Under the pieces are notes generated by a model that worked only from the letters and a program-made list of their open reading frames with translations, was not told the origin of the DNA and did no database searches. Both the position numbers and the translations under genes were made by a program. From positions 1-46,793 of the forward strand of contig JAKBZO010000003.1 in NCBI GenBank assembly GCA_021839985.1: a stretch of DNA of 46,793 nt. The letters run 5' to 3'. The stretch comes from a bacterium (GTDB taxonomy: Bacteria; Patescibacteriota; Minisyncoccia; Phycocordibacterales; SBAW01). Shown piece after piece: positions 720-34,197 of the stretch; position 1 is the stretch's first letter, and each line of letters opens with the position of its first letter.

Positions 720-2366
720 TTACAGATCCAAATGCTTCATCGATTCTTCCCACGTCGTCCCGACTTTTTTCCCGGGGTTGAATATGTTGAGGGGGTCGAA
801 CATGTGTTTGATATCGCGAAAGAGCTCGGTCATATCGGGACCGAACATTTTCTCGACATACGGCGTGCGGATCATGCCGTCATTGTGCTCGCCGGTGATC
901 GAACCGTGATACGAAAGCACAAGGTCGTACACGCGATGCGAAAGCTCATCGATGATATGCATGTCGTCCTTTCGCTTCGGATCCATAAGCGGAATGATAT
1001 GGAAATTGCCGTCGCCGACATGCCCCGCGATCGTTTCGAACAGATCATAGTTCTTGAGGATCGCTTGCAGCTTCGGCAGAAATTCCGGAAGCGAGGCAGG
1101 TGGCACTACGAAATCGTCGATGAACGGTGCGGTGCGCATATTGCGAACCTTCTTGCGCAGAAGGTTGAAACTCTCGCGGCGGATGACCCAGTACTTGCGT
1201 GCCGCCTGCTCATCTTTTGCCACGCGCACTCTCACGTGCGGGCGCATGGTATGGATATCGTCGGCGAGTTTTTGCGCGCGCGCCGTCGCCTCTTCTTGCC
1301 TATCCGCGCGGAACTCGACCATGAGCACGAGCTTGGGAATACCGCCGGAGAGAAGCATCCACACCTCGGGCAAGAACGCGAGACCGAGTTTGAGAAGACC
1401 CATCTTCATTTGCAGTGCGAATTCGGGGAAATATTTTGCGGCAAGCTTGAAGGTATTATCGTCGTATGACTCGAAACTATCCGGCTTGTACGTGAGCACG
1501 TCCGGAATGATCGCACCGAGATCGTTCAGATCCTTGAGCATGATGATGGTCATCGCGGAATACTTCTCCGGTTGCACGAGTCTGAAGTCGATCTTCGTGA
1601 TGATGCCAAGCGTACCCTGTGCGCCGCACATGAGACGCGCGAGATCGAGCGAGCGCACGCCGTCGCCGATGTCCCACAGCGCATAACCGGATGAATTCTT
1701 CGACACGGCCGGCCGTGCATGTTCGATGACCGGGCCATGGCTCGTGAGCAGCTTCGACACGCGGCGATACAGATCGCCCTCGAATGAGAGTTCCTTCAAC
1801 TTCGCCACCAGTGCGTCGCCTTCGAGCCGCTTGAGCGTGTGCACCTCGCCGTCGGCAAGCACGACATCGATCGACTCGAGGTACCGGCTGGTCTTGCCGT
1901 ATTTGAGATTCTTCTCGCCACCCGAATCGTTGGCGACCATGCCGCCAACGGTATTGATCTCGCGAGAGGCGGTGTAGCTCGGCAGCTCAAGTCCGTGCGC
2001 CTGCGTCGCTTTGTCGAAGTCGCGGAAATACACGCCGGGCTCGACGATCGCAGAATCCTTCCCCACCTCGATGATGCGGTTGAAATGCGGCGTCATATCG
2101 AGCACGATCGAATCGGTGAGCGGACCGCCCGACATGTCAGTACCGGCGGATCGCGCCGTAAGCGAGACATGCGCCTGCGGGTCGGCCGTCTTCTTTGCCG
2201 ATGCAAACTTCACGAGCGCACAGATATCCTCGGCGTCCTGCGGCGCCACGACCGCTTCCGGCTTCACCACAAACAAACTTGCGTCGCGGCTCGCGCGCGT
2301 GAGCGTCGCGTCGTCGGTCTCGACTTCACCGCGCACGATACCTCGCAATTCGTCTGCAAAAGACAT
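720..2366 (-). CDS. FAD-linked oxidase / FAD-binding dehydrogenase (GlcD, D-lactate dehydrogenase type)
   Basis: A 548-residue flavoprotein of the vanillyl-alcohol-oxidase fold. The PCMH-type FAD-binding domain spans about 30-220, with ARSAGTDMSGGPL at 71-83 and TVGGMVANDSGG at 139-150, both typical FAD-contact loops. The C-terminal substrate domain carries HVGDGNFHI at 449-457 and GSITGEHNDG at 488-497, the signatures of glycolate and D-lactate dehydrogenases. There are no 4Fe-4S cysteine clusters, so it is the short form without the fused C-terminal ferredoxin domain. It is the last gene of the leftward cluster, 33 bp after the MFS gene. It probably oxidises a 2-hydroxy acid such as D-lactate, but substrate and electron acceptor cannot be read from the sequence. 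In context it could feed electrons to the neighbouring flavin system. Confidence 0.88.
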   Translation of the reverse strand: MSFADELRGIVRGEVETDDATLTRASRDASLFVVKPEAVVAPQDAEDICALVKFASAKKTADPQAHVSLTARSAGTDMSGGPLTDSIVLDMTPHFNRIIEVGKDSAIVEPGVYFRDFDKATQAHGLELPSYTASREINTVGGMVANDSGGEKNLKYGKTSRYLESIDVVLADGEVHTLKRLEGDALVAKLKELSFEGDLYRRVSKLLTSHGPVIEHARPAVSKNSSGYALWDIGDGVRSLDLARLMCGAQGTLGIITKIDFRLVQPEKYSAMTIIMLKDLNDLGAIIPDVLTYKPDSFESYDDNTFKLAAKYFPEFALQMKMGLLKLGLAFLPEVWMLLSGGIPKLVLMVEFRADRQEEATARAQKLADDIHTMRPHVRVRVAKDEQAARKYWVIRRESFNLLRKKVRNMRTAPFIDDFVVPPASLPEFLPKLQAILKNYDLFETIAGHVGDGNFHIIPLMDPKRKDDMHIIDELSHRVYDLVLSYHGSITGEHNDGMIRTPYVEKMFGPDMTELFRDIKHMFDPLNIFNPGKKVGTTWEESMKHLDL

Positions 2367-6253: not shown

Positions 6254-7795
6254 TTATGCCAAGCCCGGGAAGAAATCTTTTTTGATGCGACGGCGCGGCA
6301 CACCCATAGAACGAAGCGTTGCGTCCATTGCGGAGACCATGCCGTGCGGACCGGAGAGATAGAATGTGCGCTGCGCATGGTCTGGTATTCGTTTCTCTAT
6401 GAAATTACGATCGATAGTACCCATATACGTATCACCTGGCGTCGACAGTGAAGCCACCTCCCCCGAAAGCACGTAAGTGGTCTTCATGCCGAAGAGCTCT
6501 GCAGCTCGATCGAACACGTCGCGATATGCGATCTCGTCGGCTTTTTTGTTCGAGTACAGCATGACCACATCACGCGATTCTCCCGAATCGATCATGTGGC
6601 GCGTCATGCTCGCAAAGGGCGTCACGCCGATGCCGCCTGCAATGAAGGCCAGCTTGCGTTTCGGATCACGCGGCATAACGAAGTCGCCCGAGAGATGCGA
6701 CGCGGAGATCACTCCGCCGATCGGCAGCTTGAAGATCGCTTTTTTGAAAGAACTCGGCGCGTCGTACACTTTCACGCCGATGCGTATGTACTCGTCCTCA
6801 GGCGATGACGCGATCGTAAAGTAGCGCCGATTGCCGCGCGAGTCAGGGCGCGAATGACCGAGTGTCCATTCGATATATTGCCCCGGCGTGAACGCGAACG
6901 CTTCCCGTCTATCGCTTGAGAAGACGAATTCATATACGCCGTTTCCAAGCTTGTTGCGCTCGACGAGCGTGAGCATGAATCGCTCTTTCGGACTCATCAG
7001 GAATGAGAAGATGTTGCCCGCAAGAAGCGCGAGCTCCGGCGTGAAGAAGAAGCCGAAGATGTTCACGGCGGGGGCAAGAAGAACGCCAACAAACCCTCCA
7101 TAGAGCACGCGTCGGAGTGCGGTCGGTGGCGTCGTGAGCGGCTCCGAGAGCATCGCGAATGCAAAGAAAAGCACCGGCGTGTAGAGCAGCGCTTGCACTG
7201 AGGTGGTCACGGCATCACTCGACGTGAGCGCTATTGCGGCAAAGAGGGCGCCAAAGAAACCGAACATGAGATCGAAGCGGCGGATCTTGCGGACCACGAG
7301 CAGACCGCCGACCGTGACGAACGGCAAGAGCCAAAGACTGCCACCGATCCACCACGTCGCCGATTGACCGATCATGAACGATGAAATCGCCACGCCGAAG
7401 GCGGCGGGGTTGAAGATATGCTTGCGCCGATAGGCAAAGATGAATTTCGACGCCATCGCCCACACGGAAGCGAAGACGAGTCCGGCGACACCCGCCGCGT
7501 CGGTCCACGATACCGGGTTCATGATGAGCACTATGACCAGCGCGGTGATATAGGGCGACTCGACATTCGCTGGCGCATCAAAGCCCCACGCAAAGACCCA
7601 ATTCGCGAGTGCCGAAACCGCGAGGATGAGCGCTGTCGAAAAGAGAAGTTGGAGCGGAGAGAACGCCAATAGTCCGAAGAAGCTCAGAGCGAATGCGACG
7701 ACGATCAGCAAGGCGGCATAGTAGAGCACCACGCGATACATAGTGATGCGATCGAGCTCGCTGTCGATGGTCTTAAATAGTTGCAACATGGTCAT
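6254..7795 (-). CDS. NqrB/RnfD-like membrane domain fused to a ferredoxin-NAD(P)H reductase domain
   Basis: A 513-residue fusion. Residues 20-265 form about eight to nine membrane segments of the NQR2/RnfD/RnfE family, recognisable by K-H-I-F-N-P-A-A-F-G (125-134), S-A-T at 145-147 where RnfD/NqrB carry a covalently bound FMN on Thr, and M-L-S-E-P-L-T-T-P (215-223). Residues 272-513 are a flavin reductase module: F-T-P-G-Q-Y (302-307) and R-Y-F-T-I-A-S-S-P (324-332) for FAD, A-G-G-I-G-V-T-P-F (386-394) and Y-L-S-G-P-H-G-M (479-486) for NAD(P). The reductase would face the cytoplasm, take electrons from NAD(P)H and pass them across the membrane through flavins. Its start overlaps the apbE stop by 4 bp (translational coupling). 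Such fusions are known from flavinylated extracytosolic electron-transfer loci. Confidence 0.88.
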   Translation of the reverse strand: MTMLQLFKTIDSELDRITMYRVVLYYAALLIVVAFALSFFGLLAFSPLQLLFSTALILAVSALANWVFAWGFDAPANVESPYITALVIVLIMNPVSWTDAAGVAGLVFASVWAMASKFIFAYRRKHIFNPAAFGVAISSFMIGQSATWWIGGSLWLLPFVTVGGLLVVRKIRRFDLMFGFFGALFAAIALTSSDAVTTSVQALLYTPVLFFAFAMLSEPLTTPPTALRRVLYGGFVGVLLAPAVNIFGFFFTPELALLAGNIFSFLMSPKERFMLTLVERNKLGNGVYEFVFSSDRREAFAFTPGQYIEWTLGHSRPDSRGNRRYFTIASSPEDEYIRIGVKVYDAPSSFKKAIFKLPIGGVISASHLSGDFVMPRDPKRKLAFIAGGIGVTPFASMTRHMIDSGESRDVVMLYSNKKADEIAYRDVFDRAAELFGMKTTYVLSGEVASLSTPGDTYMGTIDRNFIEKRIPDHAQRTFYLSGPHGMVSAMDATLRSMGVPRRRIKKDFFPGLA

Positions 7796-8511
7796 TGAAA
7801 TGAGGAGGTCATCGTCGCGACCCCGTCAGTATCTATCATATACGCTTCGAGCCCCGGGAGCGACTCGATGAATGCTGCGCCACGCTTCCCCATCGCGAAT
7901 GCTGCGGTCGCAAAACGATCCGCTTCAAGGATATCCGGACCGATGACCGTGATACTCGCAACATCGTGCGCTGCCGTATGAGACGCGCGCGGATCATAGA
8001 TATGACCGCCGCGCATGGAGGAGCCGGAGGTGGCGACGCCGCGGCCGCGCGGCACGACGACCTTCACGATCTGCTCGAAGTCGAACGGGTTGCGAATGCC
8101 GATCCGCCACTCTTCCCCTTCGGCGCTGCGTCCTTCCGTGTGAATATCTCCGCCTGCGTCGATAAGAAAATCATGGTAGCCGCGAGCGCGCACGATATCC
8201 GCCGCTTTTTTTATCGCCCAGCCTTTGGTGATGCCGGAGGGATCAATGCGCCCATCCGCGCGCACGATATCGAAGTAGCCGTCCGTCTCCTGTTTTGTCT
8301 TTTCTGCGATGATGAGGATCTCCTGAAGCTCAGCGCTCGTGGCGCTCTCGCCGCGGTTGAGTGCGGCGACCTCGCTATCATCGCGGAAGAAGCTGAATCG
8401 TTTTTCGACTTCGGTGAGGAACGCGAACACCTCATTGAGTGCGTCCGCGTTATGCGCGTCGACGATATCGACGACGATCGGCATGGTCATGATGACGCGC
8501 GTTTCTTTCAT
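7792..8511 (-). CDS. apbE: ApbE-type FAD:protein FMN transferase
   Basis: A 239-residue flavin transferase that attaches FMN from FAD to Thr in FMN-binding and NqrB/RnfD proteins. Family motifs are present in order: D-P-S-G-I-T-K-G-W-A (90-99), I-D-A-G-G-D-I (117-123), G-V-A-T-S-G-S-S (158-165), H-I-Y-D-P-R (170-175) and A-D-R-F-A-T-A-A-F-A-M-G (197-208, Mg and catalytic region). Unlike most bacterial ApbE proteins it shows no signal peptide or lipobox: the chain begins almost directly with the first beta-strand. It is therefore either cytoplasmic or has an unusual start; no upstream in-frame extension looks better. It lies 11 bp after the FMN-binding protein gene and overlaps the reductase gene, whose products are its likely substrates. 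Confidence 0.92.
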   Translation of the reverse strand: MKETRVIMTMPIVVDIVDAHNADALNEVFAFLTEVEKRFSFFRDDSEVAALNRGESATSAELQEILIIAEKTKQETDGYFDIVRADGRIDPSGITKGWAIKKAADIVRARGYHDFLIDAGGDIHTEGRSAEGEEWRIGIRNPFDFEQIVKVVVPRGRGVATSGSSMRGGHIYDPRASHTAAHDVASITVIGPDILEADRFATAAFAMGKRGAAFIESLPGLEAYMIDTDGVATMTSSFQ

Positions 8512-29533: not shown

Positions 29534-31975
29534 CTACCTCGATAGCGGAGTGGCGCTGGCTGTCGCCGGCTTGATGTAACTCTTTGAACCAGCGAACGGG
29601 TCGATCCCCCACCGCATGTTCTGAAGAATATGCGCTACATCGGTATTGGTCGGATTATCATTTTGTATCTGAGTGAAAATAGTTATCGCGTCCTGCGCGC
29701 GTCCTTGCTTGTAATACGCAAGGCCAAGGAAGTATTTTGCGTTCGCATACGACGGAACGAGCGCCACCGCCTGTTCGAGTGCCGGGATCGCATTCTGCAT
29801 ATTCCCCGCTGAATAATTGAGCAGACCGAGTTCAAGCCATAGCGGCGCTTGGTCGGGGGCGGATTGCACCGCTGCCTCGATCGCTCGCGTTGCTTCCGGA
29901 AGATTGTTTTGGGCTACCTCAACTTGTTCGGCCAGCAAGAATGCGTCGGTGTAATTACTCTTGAGCTGAAGCGACTGAGTAATGAGCTTTTGCACCTCGT
30001 TCAAATTTCCTTTGAGATCATCCGTTGCCTCAAGACGCGCGAGAAGGAGCGGTAGAGTCGGATTGGTCGGATCACGCATGATCGCCTGCTGGTATGCTTG
30101 ATACGCACCATCATACGCGCCTTGTATCTTGAGCGGGTACAAGAACTCATAGATCCGCGCAAGGTCGACATACGGACGATAATCATTGACGCTCAGCTGT
30201 GCGGCCGTCTGTCCTTGCTGGATCGCGCTGACCAGTGTCTTCTGGAAGTTATTGCGGATCTCGGTAATATTGGACGGTGAGCTTGATGCTTCATTTGCCA
30301 ATTGCTGCAATTGTGCGAGGCTTATTTCAGCTCCCGTGCGCATGTTGTCGGTCGTGCGCTCAATGCCTTGAGATGCCGCGATGGCTTGTGCCGCTCCATC
30401 GACATCATTCTGAGAGACTGCATTCAATGCTAGGCCCTGATACGCAAGCGCCACGAACCGGCGGACCGCTAAGAACGCCGGAATGATCACCGCGATAATG
30501 ACAAGCACCATCAAAACCTTACCGACTGAACGGATCGGTTTGAGCTCAGACGCTCTCATGACATGCTGCGTTGAGACGAAGCCTGCAAGCGCACCGAAGA
30601 GCGCGAATGCCAACAGCACCATGCTCTGACTTGAAGAGTAGCCGGCCAACACCGCCCACACGAAAGCCGCCGCGATCCACAGTTCGATAATAAGAGATCG
30701 ATCGTCTGACTCCGATCCCAGCCAGGTGCGCCACACTCGCACGAACATAAGACAAAGCAGGAGGAGCGGAAGCGCCCACACGATAATACCAACGAAACCG
30801 ACCGAGACAAGGGCTGTCGACATGACACTGAAGCCGGTAACAAAGTCGACGCTCCAGAACTGCGTTGTGTTCACATCGACCGGTTTGAAGTGCAGCCAGG
30901 CAGTGCCGAACGTATTGGGTCCAGTGCCGAACAGAGTGTGCTGCATACTATCGCTCGTCGCACTGCGTGCAATATCATACGTGGTCGACATCGAAGGACG
31001 GACGTCGAGTGACGTCACCGACACCGTCGAAGGAAGTTTGGCACCGATCGTAGTGCCCCACATGATGAAGATCGCTGAAATAACGATCACACCATAGGCA
31101 TACCATGCCGCCTCAGGAACTGCCTCCGTTGAGACTGCGGCAACGCTCAAGGATGCTTTTTTCCATACTCGAGCACGGAAATATTTTATGAGTGCGATCA
31201 CGAATGCGCCAACACCTAAGAACCACCAGATCAGAGAGAAACCGATAACAACGAGGAGACCGAGAAGAAGCAGTGCGCCGATGAAGCAAGTGACCATACG
31301 CCACTTTTTCTGTTGTGATTTACCGAACTCTGCGCGCACGAGCATGAGCAGCACGACCAAAGCGACCGCCATACCGAGATCGTTCCACTTGCCAATGAGG
31401 TTGACGGTCTTATCCGAGAACACAGTATTTTGCCACAGAGTACTGCCGAATAAGATGTTCACATATTGGAATACTGCCGCCAGAGTGATCGCTGCTACCA
31501 CAAAGCGAAGTAGCGTTCGTGCACGCTCAGCCGAATGAACAAAGATAAGACCGAGCACGAACGCCACATATGCGATAACCATGAAGAACACGGTGTCAAC
31601 TTCGCTGCCCACTCCCATAAAGCCGAGATATCGGTCAGACGCTAAAGCGTAAGACACAAGATAGGCCAGAGGCAGAAGCCCGACGAGAGCGGCATACACG
31701 CGCGATGAGCGCAGCGGTTCGAATACCGGTGCGCCACAGAAGCGCGCCAATGCCAGAGAGACGACCGACAAAGCAATGCCGACCGCAACGATAGCAAGTT
31801 TCAAAGGCGCAAAGGGCATCCACGAAAAGGGCGTCGACGCAATGATCGCGAGCGCTATAGAAGCGACGAACACCACCCAGCCGATGCGCTCGAACATAAA
31901 AGCCCATCGCGCTTTTTTCTCTCCCGAAGAAGGAGTGTGCACGTGCGTCTCTACTGATGGTTCTGTTGGTGGCAT
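29534..31975 (-). CDS. O-antigen ligase-like membrane protein with C-terminal TPR repeats
   Basis: An 813-residue protein. Residues about 28-490 contain some twelve membrane segments with a large external loop (about 290-360), as in the WaaL/Wzy_C superfamily. W-N-D-L-G-M-A (about 195-201) and G-T-G-P-N-T-F-G (about 340-347) are typical loop residues. Residues about 560-800 carry tandem tetratricopeptide repeats (for example N-Y-S-A-G-N-M-Q-N-A-I-P-A-L-E-Q-A-V and A-Y-Y-K-Q-G-R-A-Q-D-A-I). This ligase-plus-TPR form is common in Gram-positive-like and CPR genomes and probably joins glycans to a lipid or protein carrier at the surface. The exact acceptor is unknown. Confidence 0.85.
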   Translation of the reverse strand: MPPTEPSVETHVHTPSSGEKKARWAFMFERIGWVVFVASIALAIIASTPFSWMPFAPLKLAIVAVGIALSVVSLALARFCGAPVFEPLRSSRVYAALVGLLPLAYLVSYALASDRYLGFMGVGSEVDTVFFMVIAYVAFVLGLIFVHSAERARTLLRFVVAAITLAAVFQYVNILFGSTLWQNTVFSDKTVNLIGKWNDLGMAVALVVLLMLVRAEFGKSQQKKWRMVTCFIGALLLLGLLVVIGFSLIWWFLGVGAFVIALIKYFRARVWKKASLSVAAVSTEAVPEAAWYAYGVIVISAIFIMWGTTIGAKLPSTVSVTSLDVRPSMSTTYDIARSATSDSMQHTLFGTGPNTFGTAWLHFKPVDVNTTQFWSVDFVTGFSVMSTALVSVGFVGIIVWALPLLLLCLMFVRVWRTWLGSESDDRSLIIELWIAAAFVWAVLAGYSSSQSMVLLAFALFGALAGFVSTQHVMRASELKPIRSVGKVLMVLVIIAVIIPAFLAVRRFVALAYQGLALNAVSQNDVDGAAQAIAASQGIERTTDNMRTGAEISLAQLQQLANEASSSPSNITEIRNNFQKTLVSAIQQGQTAAQLSVNDYRPYVDLARIYEFLYPLKIQGAYDGAYQAYQQAIMRDPTNPTLPLLLARLEATDDLKGNLNEVQKLITQSLQLKSNYTDAFLLAEQVEVAQNNLPEATRAIEAAVQSAPDQAPLWLELGLLNYSAGNMQNAIPALEQAVALVPSYANAKYFLGLAYYKQGRAQDAITIFTQIQNDNPTNTDVAHILQNMRWGIDPFAGSKSYIKPATASATPLSR

Positions 31976-32108: not shown

Positions 32109-32118
32109 CATACTGCTA

Positions 32119-32590
32119 TGCGCCGATAAGCCGAATTCTGTTGAAGCTGAAGCTTCATGACAACTATTTATCTGGGCGATGTGTCGCCACATCGCTCGAG
32201 CGGCACTCCCCGCGCGCAGCGCGCAAGTTGAAAGTTCATAAAGTTCAGAAGTTCATAAAGTCATGCAGCGCGTTCTTATCCTTACCGTAACCGCTGAGTT
32301 CTGCAACTTTACGAACTTTTTAACTTTACAAACTGCGCGCTACGCGCGGGGCACGGCCTTGCACTCAAGTAAGGGTTTTGCCGTTTCACCTCTCGTGTTA
32401 CCACAAGAGCTATTCCCGAAGGAATCCGAGAACCTTTCGGACTCGGCGTCTCTGCTCGCACCTCTGCCGCGGCAGTCGCGGCGACAGGCGTTACCTGCTA
32501 CTCCTGCGATATCCGAAGACATCGCTGAGTGTTCGGACTTTCCTCCCCATCACTACCCTATAGACAATGACAGAGCAGTTGTCTGGCGCA
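32119..32590 (-). ncRNA. rnpB: RNase P RNA with an inserted AT-rich hairpin
   Basis: The catalytic RNA that matures tRNA 5' ends. On the minus strand P1 pairs tgcgcc (from 32585-32590) with ggcgca (from 32119-32124). The conserved GAGGAAAGTCCG core, AGGTAACGCCTG (P10/11 region), GGTGAAACGGCAAA and the 3' segment ACAGAATTCGGCTTATCG are all present. At about 472 nt it is longer than the usual 350-400, because one peripheral helix carries an extra hairpin of some 110 nt at 32229-32336. The promoter and terminator are both visible. Confidence 0.95.
32229..32336. repeat. AT-rich hairpin insertion in rnpB (ttcataaag repeat family)
   Basis: The left arm holds two units of agttcataaagt-type sequence (32233-32261), and the right arm their imperfect complements (32299-32335). 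The same units build the groES-groEL spacer at 39790-39897. It sits on top of a GC stem (gcgcgc) between the tRNA-recognition and core parts of RNase P RNA, so the core fold should survive. Confidence 0.75.
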
Positions 32591-32597
32591 CGAAAAC

Positions 32598-32679: not shown

Positions 32680-33372
32680 CTACGCCTTGAACTGATGGAT
32701 CGACGTATTGCGATGGATGATCTCGTCATTGCGCACCGACATGAAGAAATCGTACTGGTCGATCGGATTGCGGCCGTACCAATTCAGATACTCACTCTCT
32801 ACTTTTCTGCGCTTGAGCACTTCCCCGCGCAGTTTCAAGAAGAGCGAGTACTGATCGAACGCATGCTGCTCGAACATATAATTGAGTTCGAACGACCACC
32901 TCGAGTTGATGAGGTACAGGAAGTAGGACATCCAGAAATAGAAGAATGCGAACAGGAGCGGGATGATCGTGTGGCGGATCACGCCAGCTTTTTCTTCGCG
33001 GCGCGTCAACTCCGATATGACAACCACGTGCATGGTCTCGTTGTCGCGAGCGAAGCGAGCGAACTCGGAGGTCTTGGAGAATCGCAGTGCGCGATCCGCG
33101 TCGGTATAGAACATGGTGAGCAGCGTGAACGACGCCGACTCCCACGAATGATACGGCACGCGCGCGATCACTTCGACGGCGCGAAATTTCAGATACGATG
33201 GAGTGCGGCCGTACACAAAGTTGCCGCACACCACCAGCAACTTACCGAGCAAGCGCGGCAAAAGCGACACGCGATAGGTATCGAGCGGTTTCTTATACGT
33301 CTCGAGGGTCTCCGGATCATTCAACTGCGCGACCAGTGTTTCGTATTCTCGATCATCGCCTGATATCTTCAT
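32680..33372 (-). CDS. Alternative-oxidase (AOX)-like di-iron quinol oxidase
   Basis: A 230-residue protein with the full metal-binding pattern of alternative oxidases: Glu67 in A-V-E-V-I-A-R-V-P (AOX L-E-T-V-A-A-V-P), Glu112 and His115 in N-E-T-M-H (AOX N-E-R-M-H), Glu168 in F-E-Q-H-A (L-E-E-E-A), and Glu217 with His220 in R-N-D-E-I-I-H-R (R-A-D-E-A-H-H-R). The redox Tyr is conserved at the right spacing (Tyr175, seven after Glu168). A hydrophobic helix (about 134-156) fits the monotopic membrane-binding surface. AOX moves electrons from quinol to O2 without pumping protons. It is shorter than the 280-330-residue eukaryotic enzymes because it lacks an N-terminal extension. No quinone-synthesis gene is in the window, so the donor is unknown. 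It is a single gene between promoter-proximal and terminator elements. Confidence 0.87.
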   Translation of the reverse strand: MKISGDDREYETLVAQLNDPETLETYKKPLDTYRVSLLPRLLGKLLVVCGNFVYGRTPSYLKFRAVEVIARVPYHSWESASFTLLTMFYTDADRALRFSKTSEFARFARDNETMHVVVISELTRREEKAGVIRHTIIPLLFAFFYFWMSYFLYLINSRWSFELNYMFEQHAFDQYSLFLKLRGEVLKRRKVESEYLNWYGRNPIDQYDFFMSVRNDEIIHRNTSIHQFKA

Positions 33373-33426: not shown

Positions 33427-34197
33427 ATGACCGTACGCACAAAAACTGCAAAAAGGCGAGCGCCAGCGCCCAAAAAAGACGCCGACGTCTTCCCCATGCG
33501 CATCAACAAATATCTGGCGCTCCAGAATTACGCCACCCGCCGCGGCGCCGATGAGCTCATCGAAAAAGGGTTCGTCACGATAAACGGCAAGAGGGCAAAG
33601 CTCGGCGACATCGTGCATGAGAAAGATGAAGTCGCGGTAAAGAGCAGCGCACCGAAAAAGAATTACGTGTACTTCGCGTACAACAAACCGCGCGGCATCG
33701 TCACCCACGGCGCACAAGGGCACGAAGAAGAGATCGGCGAAGTGGTGGAGAAAGTACCGGAGCTGCGCGGCACCTTCCCGGTCGGGCGGCTCGACAAAGA
33801 CTCGCACGGACTCATCATTCTCACCAACGACGGACGCGTCACCGACCGACTCCTCAATCCGAAATTCGATCACGACAAAGAGTACGAGGTTATGGTGCAT
33901 AAACCGCTACGCAACAATTTCAAAGAGCGCATGGAGAGCGGCGTGAACATCGAAGGATACCTGACGAAAGAATGCCATGTCGACGTGGTCGGTGCCATGA
34001 AATTCCGCGTCACGCTCCATGAGGGCAAACGACATCAGATCCGCCGCATGGTCGCCGCGCTCTACAATACCGTCGCCGACATCAAGCGCGTACGCGTTCT
34101 CAACATCAAGCTCGGCAAGACGCCCTCAGGCGGCTTCGCCGCGATCAAAGGCGACGACCTCAAGATCTTTTTACAGAAGCTCGGGTTGGAGAGGTAG
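33427..34197 (+). CDS. rRNA pseudouridine synthase, RsuA/RluB family
   Basis: A 256-residue enzyme that isomerises uridine in rRNA. After a basic tail (1-22), an S4 RNA-binding domain lies at about 24-70 (R-I-N-K-Y-L-A-L-Q, then G-F-V-T-I-N-G-K-R). The catalytic domain has Y-N-K-P-R-G-I-V and the active-site Asp in G-R-L-D-K-D-S-H-G-L-I-I-L-T-N-D-G. K-R-H-Q-I-R-R-M is the family motif near residue 205. Whether it acts on 16S or 23S rRNA cannot be decided. It is divergent from the AOX-like gene across about 54 bp. Confidence 0.94.
   Translation: MTVRTKTAKRRAPAPKKDADVFPMRINKYLALQNYATRRGADELIEKGFVTINGKRAKLGDIVHEKDEVAVKSSAPKKNYVYFAYNKPRGIVTHGAQGHEEEIGEVVEKVPELRGTFPVGRLDKDSHGLIILTNDGRVTDRLLNPKFDHDKEYEVMVHKPLRNNFKERMESGVNIEGYLTKECHVDVVGAMKFRVTLHEGKRHQIRRMVAALYNTVADIKRVRVLNIKLGKTPSGGFAAIKGDDLKIFLQKLGLER

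Follow-up and report, generated by a model that had tools for sequence, protein, structure and literature searches.

How does a bacterium that shows no sign of making quinones come to carry an alternative oxidase (AOX), and what would such an enzyme oxidise? The question was raised by a 46,793-nucleotide stretch of DNA (the window; Table 1), in which the original prediction had placed an AOX with all its metal ligands. The host genome, G000, measures 736 kb, is 94.6% complete and has one AOX copy; the genomes of its relatives range from 0.4 to 1.3 Mb. We refer to the host as CPR-like, a placement that is based on genome size and gene content. An oxidase encoded by a single gene makes it easier to test in what way CPR cells that make no quinones employ quinol oxidases.

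Table 1. Features of the 46,793-nucleotide window, in window coordinates
Feature	Position	Strand	Remarks
FAD-linked 2-hydroxyacid dehydrogenase-like protein (GlcD/YdiJ type; FAD-oxidase)	720..2366	(-)	
NqrB/RnfD-like membrane domain fused to FNR-type reductase	6254..7795	(-)	Pfam; NQR2_RnfD_RnfE match below cut-off
ApbE flavin transferase, same module as NqrB-FNR	7792..8511	(-)	PF02424
813-aa membrane/TPR protein	29534..31975	(-)	TPR families
rnpB, RNase P RNA class A	32111..32594	(-)	RF00010, 98.6 bits, E 2.7e-30
AOX-superfamily gene	32680..33372	(-)	230 aa, ATG start; di-iron ligands Glu67, Glu112, His115, Glu168, Glu217, His220; tyrosines Tyr153, Tyr175, Tyr199
RluB-like pseudouridine synthase, divergent neighbour of AOX	33427..34197	(+)	PF00849 + PF01479

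Identity and predicted structure of the AOX protein

When the 230-residue protein was searched against Pfam, AOX (PF01786) was the sole match, covering residues 110–224 with 33.5 bits (E 4.3e-8). The curated cut-off of the family is 22.7 bits, so that the profile search proposed along with the original prediction supported it; the proteins of the relatives scored 31.6–49.5 bits. The stretch around Glu67 lay outside the Pfam alignment of the window protein, but it was covered in the relatives (profile from position 52–58) and in an alignment of 27 sequences. All 11 aligned homologues also matched the PHROG family of the plastoquinol terminal oxidase (phrog_4235). NCBIfam held no model matching the protein, and a scan of IMG/VR gave no match for the clade.

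In the 27-sequence alignment, the six predicted ligands and the catalytic Tyr175 shared their columns with the AOX/PTOX ligands of cyanobacteria, cyanophages and proteobacteria. All seven residues were invariant in the 11 CPR homologues, as were the other two tyrosines, Tyr153 and Tyr199; loss of ligands in close relatives was looked for, and every ligand was found to be kept. The gaps between the ligands were 45, 3, 53, 7, 42 and 3 residues in the window protein, compared with 39, 3, 48, 7, 44 and 3 in the Azospirillum AOX, and 39, 3, 48–49, 7, 44–62 and 3 when the Azospirillum, Nostoc and f86 proteins were taken together. The spacing is close to that of AOX but not identical to it. For close pairs, dN/dS of AOX was 0.02–0.09, synonymous changes prevailing; the gene is under strong purifying selection.

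The best named protein matches, obtained with the G007 homologue as query, were cyanobacterial AOX/PTOX at 25–30% identity (E down to 2e-13), and proteobacterial AOX appeared in the same search only at E 0.09. Identity of the clade to any characterised AOX was low.

An AlphaFold2 model built on an alignment of 11 sequences had a mean pLDDT of 83.6 and placed E67, E112/H115, E168/Y175 and E217/H220 on four separate helices. When this model was compared with the PDB by Foldseek, the best 14 matches were all to the trypanosome AOX (TAO), with probabilities of 0.98–1.00 but a TM of only 0.50–0.58 and an rmsd of 8–10 Å. Beyond TAO the PDB fold search gave no credible match (bacterioferritin, probability at most 0.14), and in a viral fold library the named good matches were cyanophage PTOX. 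Read off the alignments, Tyr198, Tyr220 and Tyr246 of TAO correspond to Tyr153, Tyr175 and Tyr199. Phmmer and profile searches of PDB sequences, for which both the window protein and the homologues served as queries, yielded chance GPCR matches only; hence the structural link to TAO rests on the predicted fold. The strongest hydrophobic windows of the protein were residues 35–53 and 136–155, and the model suggests a helical monotopic fold whose hydrophobic helices would attach it to the membrane.

Open reading frame 32680–33372 thus encodes a genuine but divergent protein of the AOX superfamily with every metal ligand in place. A phylogeny with bacterial and organelle AOX had been proposed as a check; in the tree obtained, the clade formed a single group with full support and a very long stem. 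The tree gave the clade a deep branch of its own, but grouping with proteobacterial AOX was not rejected (p-AU 0.37), the clade standing on its long stem. The clade can best be described as a third deep branch, which by its sequence matches and motifs stands nearer to PTOX.

Distribution and gene neighbourhood

AOX was present in 10 of 99 genomes (G000 and its relatives), namely in 9 of the 41 family genomes examined and in one of another family. When 380 genomes of the phylum were drawn, four had a match: G000, another member of the order, and two distant genomes of another family, f86 (loci L066 and L067; G178 and G146). The f86 proteins were PTOX-like with the classical FVLETIARIPY motif, and apparently represent a second, separate acquisition in the phylum. 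Within the order, the distribution of the AOX clade is patchy.

In four genomes (G000, G002, G007 and G023), AOX was found near the same lepA-murJ-TPR block and near the 813-residue membrane/TPR protein (cluster c3). This synteny shows that the gene belongs to its genome. Other genes flanked it in G004 and G016, and in G123 it lay between uvrC and ddl. The helicase c13, uvrC and ddl, which adjoin AOX in some genomes, were set aside as housekeeping genes with no visible functional link. Both flanking genes named in the original prediction, the pseudouridine synthase and rnpB, were real. It may be noted that rnpB scored just below the RF00010 cut-off of 100 bits, and automatic annotation at the Rfam gathering threshold would overlook it.

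Between family f1 and G091, AOX (56–65%) and GroEL (64–65%) were about equally similar; within f1, GroEL was more similar than AOX. An old presence of AOX in the family, with loss and some transfer, fits these observations.

Terminal oxidases, quinones and electron donors

Synthesis of ubiquinone, menaquinone and plastoquinone each requires a UbiA-type prenyltransferase. In G000 no prenyltransferase of the UbiA family was detectable, which agrees with the earlier remark that no quinone pathway was visible; quinone synthesis was judged here by the UbiA family alone. Among the ten AOX genomes of the relative set, UbiA was found in one (G015) and was absent from nine. Without the prenyltransferase, the cell would have to scavenge quinol or use a different reductant. 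The search for other oxidases, also proposed earlier, detected neither a haem-copper oxidase (COX1) nor cytochrome bd (CydA) in G000.

A CPR cell had been called an unexpected host for AOX. The surprise is lessened by precedents: CPR genomes with bo or bd quinol oxidases but without quinone synthesis are already published (PMC8407418, PMC6031116, PMC9166423), and a single AOX hit in CPR, regarded there as probably acquired from proteobacteria, has been mentioned (PMC9540462). The quinol oxidases of CPR have been explained by scavenging or by O2 removal (PMC8407418, PMC6031116, PMC9166423, PMC5220378).

Of the 41 family genomes examined for terminal oxidases, 9 encoded AOX, 15 the haem-copper subunit I and 4 the cytochrome bd subunit I, and none had two of them; in 13 no AOX, bo or bd oxidase was detectable. 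The zero overlap had a p of ~2e-4 with genomes treated as independent. In an exclusion test for AOX and bo on the GroEL tree, only 3 independent pairs lay on well-supported branches, and significance was out of reach. Mutual exclusion of AOX, bo and bd is thus observed across the 41 family genomes but not proven, and it could stem from shared ancestry or chance. In many family genomes the COX1 genes lay in cyoABCDE-like operons (L048–L053), with cyoA and cyoE beside COX1; CyoE was detected as UbiA at ~1–2.5 kb from COX1. Zero overlap is as expected if AOX, bo and bd are interchangeable quinol oxidases, and AOX probably takes the place of the missing bo and bd enzymes.

According to the original prediction, AOX might terminate an electron path that the flavin module, 22 kb away, supplies. 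In this module the gene of the NqrB-FNR fusion, with its FNR-type NAD(P)H reductase part, overlaps that of ApbE, and the fusion is widespread in the order. It was found in 6 of the 9 AOX genomes versus 10 of the 32 others (p 0.12); among the 15 bo genomes, a single one had it (p 0.002). Co-occurrence therefore gave no support to the module as a dedicated partner of AOX, and we rejected it as such. The GlcD/YdiJ-like flavoprotein fared no better as a specific partner, being present in 38 of the 41 family genomes whatever the oxidase; it is a possible quinone-reducing donor. A protein combining NQR domains has been noted in a soil Saccharibacterium (PMC6031116).

The Pyr_redox_2 proteins of G000 comprised one TrxB-like, one HI0933-like (by sequence reading) and one SQR-like protein (G000:C14:2559-3842, the same as locus L120 1489-2772). 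The best solved relative of the last was 3h8i/3h8l, deposited as an NADH oxidase, which we take to be the sulfide:quinone oxidoreductase of Acidianus; the SQR-like protein keeps two of the three catalytic cysteines of that enzyme. Within the family it occurred in G000 and G002 only. The sequence makes it a candidate electron donor to AOX. Its gene is preceded by an open reading frame that combines an FNR-like domain with PAS domains and a histidine kinase, and the two possibly form a redox-sensor pair. In CPR of acid mine sediments, sqr has been reported (PMC12153355). The same paper lists DBS and WY as mining areas with abundant CPR, and these codes appear in the names of three of the four related MAGs.

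Proposed function and relation to known systems

The reading that we favour, with reasonable but not strong confidence, is that the protein acts as a quinol:O2 oxidoreductase of the PTOX type, which does not pump protons and stands in the terminal-oxidase slot. Attached to one leaflet of the cell membrane by two hydrophobic helices, it would use its Glu4-His2 di-iron site and Tyr175 to pass electrons from quinol to O2, forming water without pumping protons. In the single terminal-oxidase slot it would replace cytochrome bo or bd at low cost and without haem, and its turnover would recycle reduced carriers and lower O2. The quinol would probably come from the membranes of a host or neighbour, and flavoproteins, for instance the FAD-oxidase or the SQR-like protein of contig C14, may be where electrons enter. 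More tentatively, and with odds that we put somewhat against it, the clade may be a CPR-specific deep branch of AOX with a remodelled reductant site. In cells that make no quinone it would then be the only terminal enzyme to reduce O2, driven by quinol stolen from a host or by a non-quinone reductant, and the lineages of one family would swap AOX, bo and bd and keep one per genome.

Residues of the substrate pocket bear on the choice of reductant. Arg118, Leu122 and Thr219 of TAO, which we take to be quinol-pocket residues, correspond to Lys62, Val66 and Gln174 in the clade, Leu being kept only in G123. The other aligned AOX/PTOX sequences had Arg, Leu and Thr/Ser at these positions, except for a divergent Chelatococcus protein. 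His75 was found clade-wide, compared with mostly Phe/Met in other AOX/PTOX; G123 deviated at two of these four positions.

As a separate observation, the gene annotated as alternative oxidase on plasmid pTAD1 of Chelatococcus daeguensis (L071) encodes Gln in the Glu112 column and Ala in the Glu168 column, and adjoins a pseudoazurin gene. With two ligands lost, its product may be non-functional or repurposed.

Since the pocket positions are replaced, a changed reductant was kept open for the clade: the chemistry of AOX may be retained with a shifted substrate (a non-isoprenoid quinol, or a flavin-type or other small reductant) in a quinone-free cell. Such a shift would agree with the clade-wide pocket residues, with the long stem in the tree and with the lack of UbiA in nine of ten AOX genomes. 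However, AOX takes turns with two enzymes whose characterised relatives oxidise quinol, G000 and G002 have a possibly quinone-linked SQR-like protein, and the pocket assignment itself is carried over from TAO structures. We consider a shifted substrate unlikely, if worth keeping in mind.

It is distinctly improbable, in our judgement, that the enzyme is a device for O2 removal only, shielding an anaerobic fermentation without any role in redox balance or energy. O2 scavenging has been proposed for CPR terminal oxidases (PMC9166423, PMC5220378) and AOX conserves no energy, but its low O2 affinity fits pure scavenging poorly (PMC6431628). Moreover, any turnover of AOX re-oxidises a reductant as well, so that this proposal overlaps with a quinol oxidase in the terminal slot.

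That the protein belongs to another ferritin-like di-iron family (COQ7-like, ferritin or hydroxylase), as its general four-helix architecture might allow, or is a non-catalytic relic, is very improbable, because no profile or fold in Pfam or the PDB matched better than AOX, which was the sole Pfam match, with TAO the only credible PDB fold match; the ligands are invariant and dN/dS is low. Misbinning of the contig from another organism could be suspected in a MAG of 38 contigs with a contamination estimate of 1.1%, but we discount it almost entirely: AOX is flanked by rnpB and rluB within a contig of 46.8 kb, the same clade occurs in nine family genomes, the closest AOX pairs are the closest GroEL pairs, and the neighbouring genes common to G000, G002, G007 and G023 contradict it.

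Taken as a PTOX-like quinol oxidase, the protein is small, haem-free and alternates with bo and bd, and it lends itself to expression and to assays with various quinols. It also adds a deep bacterial lineage, with altered substrate-pocket residues, to the range of AOX/PTOX. Among the open-licence papers searched, we found none that describes this AOX clade or the way in which AOX, bo and bd replace one another.

Among known systems, cyanobacterial and cyanophage PTOX (PF01786, phrog_4235) share with the clade the six ligands, the three tyrosines, the IARxPY motif after the first ligand Glu and the HAxxxY motif at the third helix. At about 25–30% identity to them, the clade differs in an extra N-terminal helical part of ~35 residues, in insertions of ~4–6 residues on either side of Glu112/His115, in its altered quinol-pocket positions and in lacking the 20-residue insertion that precedes the last ligand pair of cyanobacterial PTOX. 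In the parts examined, its CPR-like host showed no trace of photosynthesis.

TAO (PDB 3vv9) and the mitochondrial and proteobacterial AOX have their fold and ligand set in common with the clade, but TAO gave no significant sequence match to the clade by phmmer or profile. Their motif AxVPGM is replaced by AxVPYH in the clade, and their typical hosts produce their own quinone. The CPR AOX hit mentioned above (PMC9540462) is of the same superfamily and likewise from a CPR genome, but it was reported to branch with proteobacterial AOX, with which our clade does not appear to group closely. The cytochromes bo3 and bd of CPR (PMC8407418, PMC6031116, PMC9166423) resemble AOX in being terminal oxidases of CPR genomes without quinone synthesis, and they occur in sister genomes. 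In contrast to AOX they are haem-dependent and energy-conserving, the proteins are unrelated, and they shared none of the 41 genomes with it.
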